Origin: Edaphobacter acidisoli
Lineage (GTDB): Bacteria > Acidobacteriota > Terriglobia > Terriglobales > Acidobacteriaceae
DNA: 64,000 nucleotides
Assembly: GCF_014642855.1 (NCBI RefSeq)
Contig: NZ_BMJB01000001.1
Span: forward strand, 2,852,001-2,916,000
Reading direction: 5' to 3'
Part shown: positions 27,438-31,457 of the stretch, one piece after another
Position numbering within the stretch: position 1 is the stretch's first letter
How the letters are laid out: every line of letters begins with the position of its first letter
Notes under the pieces: model-generated
Databases searched by the model: none
What the model was told of the DNA's origin: nothing
Seen by the model: the letters and a program-made list of their open reading frames with translations, nothing else
Translations under genes and position numbers: made by a program

Positions 27438-28067
27438 TCAGTCGGGAATAGACTTCATAGCCCTGATGAGATAACTGGACTGGCTCCCGGGGATAAGAAC
27501 AGGTGGCTCGACGGTAAAATCCGCTGGGAGCTCAGGATGAGCGCCCGCTAGCAAAAGGATTTCCCGGGATGCGCGCGGCACTGCAGCCGCGAAGGCAGCA
27601 GCCATATGATCGACGGCCCGCAGGGTAACGATATCGAACTGTCTTGTCTCAGGTAGAGCTTCCGCCCGTTCGGCCCACACCTCAACATTTTGAAGCCCAA
27701 GTGTCCGAACAGCCTCACGGAGAAAAGTAGCCTTCTTATTCTGCGATTCGGCCAGCGTAACAGCGATCTCTGGACGAAGCAGGGCGATGGGAAGCCCTGG
27801 GAAACCCGCTCCTGAGCCTAAATCCAGCAAAGTCTTGGTTTCGAAGCCAACGTGGCGGCCTGCAAACAAGCTCTCGCCGAAGTGGCGCTGGACTATCTGA
27901 CCCGGGTCACGAATAGCGGTCAGATTCGTGCGAGCGTTCCACTTGAACAGCAGATTGAGATACTGCGAGAGTTTTGCCGCAAGCCCGGCTGGTATTTCGG
28001 GTAGGTAAGGGGCGAGAAGTGCTTCGATTTGGGCTTCAGAGATGTCAGATTGTTCCACGTGGAACAT
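27438..28067 (-). CDS. rsmG: RsmG (GidB), 16S rRNA G527 N7-methyltransferase
   Basis: Methylates G527 of 16S rRNA using SAM (209 residues). SAM loop LLDLGSGAGFPGLP, then VTLAESQNKKATFLREAVRTL and the substrate-side VTLRAVDH motif are all present. Its N-terminus MFHVEQ is encoded by a parS site: the ATG at 28067 overlaps parS 3. rsmG next to parAB is a classic origin neighbourhood; the usual mnmG partner is not between parA and rsmG here. Ribosome-binding site weak. The gene is bracketed by two directly repeated parS cassettes. Confidence 0.96.
   Translation of the reverse strand: MFHVEQSDISEAQIEALLAPYLPEIPAGLAAKLSQYLNLLFKWNARTNLTAIRDPGQIVQRHFGESLFAGRHVGFETKTLLDLGSGAGFPGLPIALLRPEIAVTLAESQNKKATFLREAVRTLGLQNVEVWAERAEALPETRQFDIVTLRAVDHMAAAFAAAVPRASREILLLAGAHPELPADFTVEPPVLIPGSQSSYLIRAMKSIPD
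28051..28066. other. parS site 3, overlapping the rsmG start
   Basis: TGTTCCACGTGGAACA, the copy closest to the textbook parS consensus. It encodes residues 2-6 of RsmG and covers two bases of its start codon. Confidence 0.92.
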
Positions 28068-28081
28068 TTTAAGGTCAGAAA

Positions 28082-28097
28082 TGCTCCACGTGGAGCA
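28082..28097. other. parS site 4
   Basis: TGCTCCACGTGGAGCA, perfect, only 15 bases from site 3. It opens the right cassette. Confidence 0.9.
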
Positions 28098-28110
28098 TTC
28101 TCGAAAAACC

Positions 28111-28269: not shown

Positions 28270-28293
28270 AGCCTCTCGCGCCAGAGGGCAGAA

Positions 28294-28309
28294 TGCTCCA
28301 CGTGGAGCA
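28294..28309. other. parS site 5
   Basis: TGCTCCACGTGGAGCA, perfect, six bases past the stop codon of the aldo/keto reductase gene on the minus strand. Confidence 0.9.
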
Positions 28310-28315
28310 ATTTCG

Positions 28316-29305
<990 letters not shown>

Positions 29306-29355
29306 GGCTCAGTTAGATGGGTTGAAGCGCGGTGACGACTCGCGTGCTGCTGAAA

Positions 29356-29371
29356 TGCTCCACGTGGAGCA
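29356..29371. other. parS site 6
   Basis: TGCTCCACGTGGAGCA, perfect, in the short gap between the aldo/keto reductase start and the end of the next gene. Last of six sites in 2.16 kb. Confidence 0.9.
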
Positions 29372-29381
29372 TTTTTGATGG

Positions 29382-30185: not shown

Positions 30186-30298
30186 AGGCAGGATCAGGAA
30201 CCAGTGGCTGGGAATGGTTCTATGAAGATGGTAACTCCAACTGCGATTTCGCTTGCTGGTCTAAATGATGAGAACGGCCTTTATGGTGACTAATCGGA

Positions 30299-31315
30299 CT
30301 AGAACGGGATATCGTCGTCAGAGATTTCCGCTGCTTCGGTAGCTTCGAATCTCAAATCGAGAAGTATCCTTGCTGACTGCTCGAGAAATTCCTCGCGATC
30401 CATGAAGATGATGTGTCGGCGCTGGGAGGCATCAAGCTGCTGAGCCAGCCAACTCCGAGCAGCTTTTGTAATGTCTCCCGCCGAAATCAAATACAAGTGA
30501 TCCAGCAAAACCATACGGTTGATCTCCGGATCATGGATGGGATGATCTATCGCCATGCGAGCCTGCGTAAGAATGTTCGCTACGTTTTTCTCGGCTGAGG
30601 CGTTATTGGAGTCGATCCTGTTCTTCTTGACTTGAGCACAGAAGTAAATCCAATGCCCGGTCGGCAACTGGTACTTCATCCATAAGTCCTTGCCGAACTC
30701 GAGCGATCGGTCACTATGGCCGGTCGGGGTCACGCGCCTGTATCCCAACCGTTGAAAGAGCGGAACAAGAATCTTTTCGATGAATTCGTCTTCGCTTGCT
30801 CCATCAAGAAAGATGTTGAGCTTTTTGCGTTGTTCAATCTCTTCCTGAGAGAGTGGCCTGCTGGTCTGTGAATAGGAGGCACTGCTGATTCCAGTGCCGG
30901 TGGTGCGCAGGAAACATCGGCCCGATTCGTCAAGGTATGCGGTAATGCCATGACGTTTGACGATGTTGTTAAAGCTCTCAAGAGCCTTCGCGATGTCTGC
31001 AAAGTGTTCCGGATTTGTCTCGCCCCGCCGCCGCAGTTGACGGTTGTGCCGGTCGAAATCGTCCTGCTCGAAAAGCTCCGAAATCACACGGCAAAGGTCG
31101 TCAGGCGGTAAATCAACAGAGGTAGCTGGCCCAAGATTGAGTTCTTGAAGGCGTTCGTTCGCCCATTTCGGCCGGGTCGTTCCGTCATGGGTAAAGGGGA
31201 GGCCGCAACGCTTGAAGAAACGCGTTATGTAATAGCTACTGCGGTACGGAAAGTGAGCAGCATCTCCGACGACCATTCGGGCAATCTCTTCGAGTACACT
31301 GTCTGTCAATTTCAT
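30299..31315 (-). CDS. Putative defence protein: AbiJ-NTD3-like domain fused to a Mrr-like PD-(D/E)XK nuclease
   Basis: A 338-residue protein without a named family here. The N-terminal ~95 residues (SSYYITRFFKRCGLPFTHDG, then RPKWANERLQELN and DLPPDDLCRVISEL) resemble the AbiJ N-terminal domain type 3 found in abortive-infection proteins. The C-terminal part has FGKDLWMKYQ (D210), a strand and FCAQVKKNRID (Q228, K230), the D...QxK arrangement of Mrr-like PD-(D/E)XK nucleases, followed by LTQARMAIDHPIHD and a sequence ending SAGDITKAARSWL, typical of such domains in defence genes. Base composition is lower than around it (30 of 60 bases G or C in 30361-30420), which suggests transfer. It stands alone; no partner gene is near. 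Function is inference from domain resemblance. Confidence 0.6.
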   Translation of the reverse strand: MKLTDSVLEEIARMVVGDAAHFPYRSSYYITRFFKRCGLPFTHDGTTRPKWANERLQELNLGPATSVDLPPDDLCRVISELFEQDDFDRHNRQLRRRGETNPEHFADIAKALESFNNIVKRHGITAYLDESGRCFLRTTGTGISSASYSQTSRPLSQEEIEQRKKLNIFLDGASEDEFIEKILVPLFQRLGYRRVTPTGHSDRSLEFGKDLWMKYQLPTGHWIYFCAQVKKNRIDSNNASAEKNVANILTQARMAIDHPIHDPEINRMVLLDHLYLISAGDITKAARSWLAQQLDASQRRHIIFMDREEFLEQSARILLDLRFEATEAAEISDDDIPF

Positions 31316-31457
31316 CGTGCTTCTGACTATATTGGAAAGCCGCCGCTTCTCGATTAGTCCTCATAAGTCGGCTTATGGGAAGTAATCATACCGCTCACTG
31401 ATGAGAAGCGCTTTATCAGGGCTCACGTTCTCTTCGGATGCGATAGGTTCGCTCATG

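Follow-up and report, generated by a model that had tools for sequence, protein, structure and literature searches.

The gene at positions 30299-31315 (minus strand) of the 64,000-nucleotide stretch of DNA analyzed here (the window) encodes a protein of 338 residues in which a helical N-terminal domain is followed by a predicted PD-(D/E)XK nuclease and a disordered linker that carries an SSB-like tip. We propose, with a probability of roughly 55%, that this protein is a stand-alone mobile anti-phage effector made of an exchangeable N-terminal module, an Mrr-like nuclease and a tip that docks as the SSB tail does, with an abortive outcome as the likely result. The observation is more than chance, because 19 relatives could be aligned with the window protein at 39-71% identity.

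The gene and its genomic setting

An earlier note on this DNA had placed an open reading frame at these coordinates, and the reanalysis returned exactly the same frame, on the minus strand, with an ATG start and 338 codons for amino acids. The GC content of the gene was 51.8% as against 60.0% for the window, in agreement with the patch of about 50% GC that had been described. The proximity to the replication origin claimed in that note also fitted the surroundings. Genes of the parA, parB and rsmG types occupy 25-28 kb of the window, about 2 to 5 kb from the ORF (rsmG was assigned by Pfam, parA and parB were named from sequence reading), and the cumulative GC skew had its minimum within the window near 27 kb. 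Adjoining the parAB/rsmG-type genes are four palindromes, TGTTCCACGTGGAACA and TGCTCCACGTGGAGCA variants, at 28047-28073, 28078-28104, 28290-28316 and 29352-29378, which we take to be of the parS type. On account of these genes, the skew minimum and the palindromes, the origin is probably near the ORF.

Within its own 4.2-Mb genome the gene itself was the sole match to the protein. It lies together with greB and a VOC gene in the interval between PlsC and C26 (30186-32588). To describe this site in the genus, 30 C26 loci returned from 58 matched genomes were used, of which one was the window's own. The PlsC-C26 distance was below 400 bp in 20 of the remaining 29 relatives, that is, the site was empty; the gap was 700-820 bp in 4 of the 29, and 5 had no PlsC within 1.5 kb. 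In another genome of the genus (G692), where the neighbourhood is rearranged, an AIPR/AbiU abortive-infection gene (L100:516-2246) was observed 5' of C26.

Two further ideas about the site were rejected. A fixed partnership with greB was dropped, since 0 of the 8 other window genes tested lay within 1.5 kb of greB in 8 same-genus relatives (loci L055-L062), a close greB being present in 9 of 41 genomes including the window's own. An imperfect 16-nt inverted repeat, TTATGNNGACTAATCG, brackets the gene at 30281-30296 and 31351-31366 and, allowing at most one mismatch, was found only at these two places genome-wide. A transposon-like cassette was nevertheless discarded, as the flanking repeat was seen around no homolog read; its score was 12, the highest of 30 shuffles being 10.

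The predicted nuclease domain

The back half of the protein had been proposed in the earlier note to be an Mrr-like nuclease with a D...QxK signature, and the predicted structure bore this out. Residues 153-323 (30347-30859, minus strand) formed a nuclease fold in the model, with the alpha-beta-beta-beta-alpha-beta core required for PD-(D/E)XK. The full-length model, built from an alignment of 18 sequences, reached a pLDDT of 83.5 and a pTM of 0.51, so that the mutual placement of the domains is not fixed by the model. Comparison of residues 153-323 with known structures by VIA-align gave FokI (Z 9.7, rmsd 4.5, 148 aligned), MspJI (Z 9.3, rmsd 3.7, 137 aligned), SduA (Z 7.9, rmsd 4.7, 151 aligned), Avs4 (Z 7.8, rmsd 3.5, 132 aligned) and Cap4 (Z 7.2, rmsd 4.2, 126 aligned), Z values of 7 to 8 being common by the tool's own warning. 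The assignment persuades because nearly all top structural rows share the PD-(D/E)XK fold. Plain Foldseek searches revealed weak matches in the PDB (best E 0.009, FokI) and a best value of 1.9e-4 among viral proteins, to a restriction endonuclease.

Profile searches agreed in part with a restriction-endonuclease assignment: Mrr_cat (PF04471) was the lone Pfam match, spanning residues 177-311, but its 18.6 bits lay below the cut-off of 21, and it was found in 0 of the 19 other aligned sequences. On the other hand, E175, E206, K209, D210, Q228 and K230 did not vary across the 20 aligned sequences, which comprise 19 relatives besides the window protein, D210 and K230 being at the positions given before. 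D210 (30686-30688) is the putative catalytic acidic residue, Q228-V-K230 (30626-30634) constitutes the QxK motif, and E175 (30791-30793) opens the second helix (residues 175-189) of the domain, all three on the minus strand. Residues 153-323 are thus predicted by the model to form a PD-(D/E)XK nuclease fold with invariant catalytic-type residues, and we infer from the sequence that this half would cleave DNA. In L011 a domain weakly related to the nuclease half (E 2e-5 to the family profile) precedes a NACHT NTPase.

The N-terminal domain as an exchangeable module

Residues 1-150 (30866-31315, minus strand) form a helical domain with a beta hairpin in the predicted model, and the alignment revealed the conserved motif FPYRSSxxITxFF...HDGSTRxxW. 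Modelled alone, the domain was compact and helical (pLDDT 94.5, pTM 0.88). With the isolated domain Foldseek found no PDB entry at E 0.001 (best 0.66) and the best VIA Z was 3.2, which does not make the fold new.

This part of the protein had been called AbiJ-NTD3-like. PF18860 (AbiJ_NTD3, gathering score 32.5 bits) was undetected in the window protein and appeared in 1 of 20 family members (E 0.031), so that what survives of the claim is a weak and partial profile-profile similarity. The comparison of the domain with AbiJ_NTD3 by hhalign gave 60.1% (57 columns) when 12 sequences were used and 8.7% when 4 were used, while no column shuffle out of 40 exceeded 3.9% and reversal of the profile gave 1.1%. 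A TIR-like set, which scored 87.5%, was rejected as a control of this comparison because it contains L008, itself a bearer of the domain. From these profiles it seems plausible that the second half of the domain is distantly related to AbiJ_NTD3. The HEPN effector domain (AbiJ, HEPN RNase) gave no Pfam match in the window protein or the family.

L008 is an acidobacterial open frame of 310 residues with the same N-terminal domain (E 2e-28) and a different C-terminal part, which matched the PADLOC TIR effector model at 9e-5 and Nuc_deoxyrib_tr at 0.23. Plasmid relatives of this C-terminal part carry other N-termini, in one case AbiJ_NTD5 (PF18865, 1.2e-27). Since L008 has the same domain on a TIR/deoxyribosyltransferase-like effector, the N-terminal domain is, to judge from these architectures, a swappable module. 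According to the available text of PMC3710099, AbiJ-NTD modules are N-terminal units of about 100-160 residues joined to interchangeable effectors, among which an Mrr-type REase is listed with AbiJ-NTD1 and NTD2 and a deoxyribosyltransferase with AbiJ-NTD1. Because AbiJ-NTD1 is thus reported there as fused to both, it would suit the present fusion partners best, as a candidate only.

The SSB-like C-terminal tip

The window protein ends in ...EISDDDIPF, an SSB-like tip absent from the earlier note. Residues 333-338, DDDIPF (30302-30319, minus strand), stand directly before the stop codon and are identical to the SSB-Ct hexapeptide, given as DDDIPF in the accessible part of PMC5872125; E. coli SSB ends in -MDFDDDIPF in that of PMC3290774. 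The tip is preceded by a variable linker (residues 318-332; 30320-30364, minus strand), delimited by low model confidence and column identities, which differs in length and sequence across the family. In the full-length model the tail had a mean pLDDT of 53 at residues 321-330 and of 45 at residues 331-338. A search of the window protein for the OB fold (PF00436) was negative at E 1, and apart from its end the protein showed no resemblance to SSB.

A PF terminus was present in 34 of 39 distinct homolog ORFs in which the nuclease half was present and the frame ran to a stop; the exceptions were L005 (ADLEIT), L007 (SLPRV), L041 (EDDIQF), L042 (SDFSF) and L049 (DDNLSF). Among representatives under 80% identity, 21 of 25 ended in PF and 16 of 25 in [DE][DE]xPF, compared with 3 and 2, respectively, of 1388 background ORFs, these being the remaining distinct ORFs of the loci with 150 residues or more, taken stop to stop in all frames and in many cases not genes. 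The terminal Pro-Phe was the best-kept part of the tail (100% in the 19 rows of alignment A1, a count that leaves out L007, whose row is incomplete at the C-terminus and whose true tail lacks PF).

Both background ORFs with a [DE][DE]xPF end were read. The first, on a viral contig (L035:8802-9335), encodes a DUF6511 protein whose family match reaches the end, FDDEIPF. The second (L002:9005-9802) is deoxyribosyltransferase/TIR-like, lies convergent with the homolog L002 and ends in LDPDDIPF; as both it and the homolog end in this way, two neighbouring and unrelated genes have a common tip there.

The tips were compared with the best-scoring SSB in nine distinct carrier genomes, G634/G778 and G645/G777 being counted once each. 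The endings of the nuclease and of the genome's own SSB were ISDDDIPF and ITDDDIPF in the window genome, ITDEDIPF and ITDEDIPF in L001, ITDDDIPF and ITDDDIPF in G600, SFDDIPPF and ITDEDIPF in G624, GIDDFPF and ITEDDIPF in L002, SDSLPF and SDDDVPF in L003, ADEMPF and DEDDIPF in L004, TDDNLSF and SDDDVPF in G550, and SLPRV and SDDDIPF in G383, where the nuclease tip is lost. The nuclease kept PF in 7 of the 9 genomes and was identical to its own SSB over eight residues in 2 of 9, in related lineages. Lower-scoring SSB paralogs of the carrier genomes mostly had different tails. The C-terminus is PPF in three of four plasmid homologs from Actinobacteria (TTDEPPF in M. lentiflavum), and the fourth ends in NNELPF; PPF occurred in 1 of 17 other PF-ending representatives (Fisher p 0.012, kinship ignored). 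The mycobacterial SSB peptide is FGGGDDEPPF in the available text of PMC7847540. These pairs suggest that the tip resembles the SSB end of its own host.

Such likeness would also suit a bait. If phage proteins of recombination or replication that hold on to the SSB tail of the host also bound the tip, they could trigger the effector, as in a guard model; lambda Orf has been proposed to act on ssDNA covered by SSB (PMC4118853, in part). However, the phage partner is hypothetical and the same facts are covered by docking on host proteins, so that a decoy role appears doubtful. The tip could otherwise control the protein level by offering a place to grip to ClpX or a different protease adaptor: in the accessible text of PMC7847540, ClpX is activated by the mycobacterial SSB tail and the final Phe is needed for this. 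The same text reports that SSB itself is not degraded by ClpXP1P2, and the case concerns a single lineage; we regard a protease handle as very unlikely. Docking into the pockets of proteins that read the SSB tail is the reading we prefer for the tip.

The same tip on other proteins

Ends of the form D-[DE]-[FILMV]-P-F were scanned in 62 genomes of the genus, a pattern with a high chance rate at the DNA level according to the control columns. Excluding the target's own match and four matches with TGG in place of the stop, 86 distinct ORFs were read, 68 SSB-like and 18 not, and 6 of the 18 had an open frame of at least 100 residues. One tip-scan ORF, in G603, combined AbiJ_NTD3 (147.6 bits) with TIR_2 (65.7 bits) and ended in SNDEIPF.

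PF18860, which had earlier given 0 matches in 149 genomes of the phylum, was found in 10 of 397 genomes of the order, at 11 places. All five AbiJ_NTD3-TIR ORFs of the order (L233, L234, L235, L237 and L243) carried an SSB-like tip, their tails being SNDDIPF, DDEIIPF, SNDEIPF, SDDDIPF and DDDDIPF. Of AbiJ_NTD3, L243 retains just the terminal portion; it and L242 are probably the two parts of a split gene, L243 being the second. Since G603 was the case that raised the idea, the independent count is 4 of 4. The tip was present in 0 of 5 AbiJ_NTD3 ORFs without TIR that reached a stop, among them L239, which has an internal stop and whose true end was unread. Three plasmid AbiJ_NTD3 proteins had no SSB-like tip, nor had L232, a plasmid TIR protein matching mainly the TIR part of the G603 protein, nor L008 and seven plasmid relatives of its effector part. 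The tip is therefore required by neither module, given its absence from L008, its seven effector relatives and L232.

We see about an even chance that these proteins represent an unrecognised class of immune effectors that employ two or more unrelated enzymes (an Mrr-type nuclease and TIR, perhaps once a deoxyribosyltransferase-like one), in which a counterfeit, host-like SSB tip plugs into the SSB hub to sense or reach phage-disturbed replication.

An acidic tip on a flexible linker might instead serve as an internal brake, lying over the basic DNA-binding groove of the protein itself and being pushed aside by DNA or a phage factor, an arrangement that works without a partner. However, tips of this kind are also found on TIR proteins, which lack a nuclease groove of that sort. 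Moreover, conservation is highest at Pro-Phe (all 19 A1 rows), as expected for pocket docking, 3 of 4 actinobacterial members end in PPF like mycobacterial SSB, and the tail falls under a pLDDT of 50 in the model. A brake is thus unlikely, and these observations agree better with docking of the tip in a pocket of another protein.

Other proteins with such ends were also seen. A second non-SSB tip protein of the window's genome (L145:1170-1646; G000:C1:318169-318645) ends in ITDDDIPF and has no Pfam match; its homolog L165 (G564) keeps the tip. L150 (G217), L148 (G297) and L155 (G585) end in EDEIPF, SDDIPF and EDDVPF and have no Pfam match.

Distribution, mobility and neighbouring genes

The family has members in Acidobacteriota, a planctomycete, Proteobacteria and Actinobacteria, and these include plasmid- and prophage-borne copies. 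The genome search gave five loci with relatives, the plasmid search 46 records (36 of them covering at least 80% of the query) and IMG/VR 15 loci, some partial or broken. A first IMG/VR scan with the single protein as query gave no match, and no match to the window protein was obtained in PHROGs, in the PDB sequence search or in phage records. The survey of the phylum matched 6 of 396 genomes, partial matches counted in, and that of the class 10 of 399, a number that includes partial matches and at least one chance match (L053, a long TPR/regulator-like protein rejected on reading its sequence). In the genus, 4 of 62 genomes matched, namely the full copy of the window, two N-terminal pieces and one distant match to the nuclease half. 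With the nucleotide sequence of a homolog from an E. coli plasmid as query, 191 of 5426 complete E. coli genomes matched, at 191 chromosomal and 2 plasmid places. The distribution indicates a horizontally moving family. Two copies are damaged, that of L027 by IS21-family genes that interrupt it and that of L043 by being scattered over several reading frames; intact copies occur elsewhere.

Beside or near homologs we found a DRT-type RT-Toprim gene, HsdR, a PLD-helicase about 2 kb off, a DrmD-like SNF2 gene with a methylase, an ABC-three-component system, S-4TM and Abi-family genes, in loci chosen by similarity and readability and listed without control frequencies. Other loci had metabolic neighbours of the ordinary kind. 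In the protein PADLOC returned nothing beyond two short matches to HEC-01B, of 30 and 25 residues (E 0.012 and 0.035, respectively), and no model of a known system was matched. A defence role exercised by a single gene would fit many gene contexts.

The gene might, however, serve plasmid or prophage maintenance or exclusion and not act against phages. This role keeps some weight because the enterobacterial plasmid neighbours are toxin-antitoxin genes: among the enterobacterial plasmids read, vapBC adjoins the gene on six, and likewise a broken copy. Both E. coli chromosomal copies inspected lie within prophage genes, as remnants or cargo; one of them adjoins a cytosine methyltransferase and a type II restriction enzyme. 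Yet vapBC was annotated beside the homolog in none of the other annotated loci read, and several of these have R-M or ABC-three-component neighbours. A maintenance or exclusion nuclease is for these reasons quite unlikely, and an anti-phage effector is the function we favour.

Proposed mechanism

As an anti-phage effector the protein would work as follows. The N-terminal helical module, of AbiJ-NTD type, would regulate or sense and would be exchangeable among effectors, and the Mrr-like PD-(D/E)XK domain would be the DNA cutter. The flexible linker and the DDDIPF tip would dock into pockets of SSB-tail-reading proteins, such as exonuclease I, RecO, RecG, DnaG and HolC in E. coli. Such reading of the SSB tail is described for exonuclease I and HolC in the accessible parts of PMC3290774 and PMC11981726, respectively, and for RecO, RecG and DnaG in literature abstracts. 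Docked in this way, the nuclease may be held at, or may monitor, replication and repair complexes. Takeover of replication by a phage would disturb this hub, and the nuclease, freed or engaged, would degrade DNA and probably abort the infection. To our knowledge, no phage-sensing cue of the Abi-type N-domain fusions is established. If the mechanism is correct, it would join orphan Abi-fusion effectors to an SSB hub that several defence systems already watch, and an SSB-type tip common to two unrelated effectors would be a search motif for more of them.

Comparison with known systems

Lists of proteins in which an Abi-type N-domain is fused to a nuclease or a TIR go back to 2013 (Anantharaman et al. 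2013, PMC3710099), and the architecture of an Abi-NTD with Mrr is known in print from sources available in part. A search of the open-licence literature, outside which most subscription papers and preprints lie, revealed no publication in which a defence effector is connected with an SSB-type tip; the terms 'SSB-Ct' and 'anti-phage' occurred together there in the available text of a review of DinG-like proteins and a drug-target review. The window protein has in common with the AbiJ-NTD fusions of PMC3710099 an N-terminal module on interchangeable effectors, in genes of defence type. It differs in that its domain misses the Pfam cut-off of AbiJ_NTD3 and in its SSB-like tip, which the accessible text of that paper does not describe.

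With FokI, MspJI, SduA of Shedu, the N-terminal region of Avs4, Card1 and Can2 the protein shares the predicted fold and D...QxK, whereas the other domains of these Mrr_cat/PD-(D/E)XK nucleases were not found in it and its match to PF04471 is sub-threshold. With bacterial SSB it shares the last six residues, which are identical, and a disordered linker, but it has no OB-fold match. According to the available text of PMC10732053, phage SSB triggers Retron-Eco8, Hachiman, ShosTA, Nhi, Hna and AbpAB; the mechanism of Hna is treated in PMC13381803. Hna, AbpAB, Retron-Eco8, Hachiman and Nhi resemble the system proposed here in tying replication and SSB biology to abortive defence, but they respond to phage SSB, and the accessible parts of both papers describe no SSB tail of their own. 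A further parallel in architecture is with the AbiJ_NTD3-TIR proteins of the same order, which likewise have an Abi-type N-domain, an effector and an SSB-like tip; in those proteins a true AbiJ_NTD3 is joined to TIR, whereas the effector of the window protein is a predicted nuclease.
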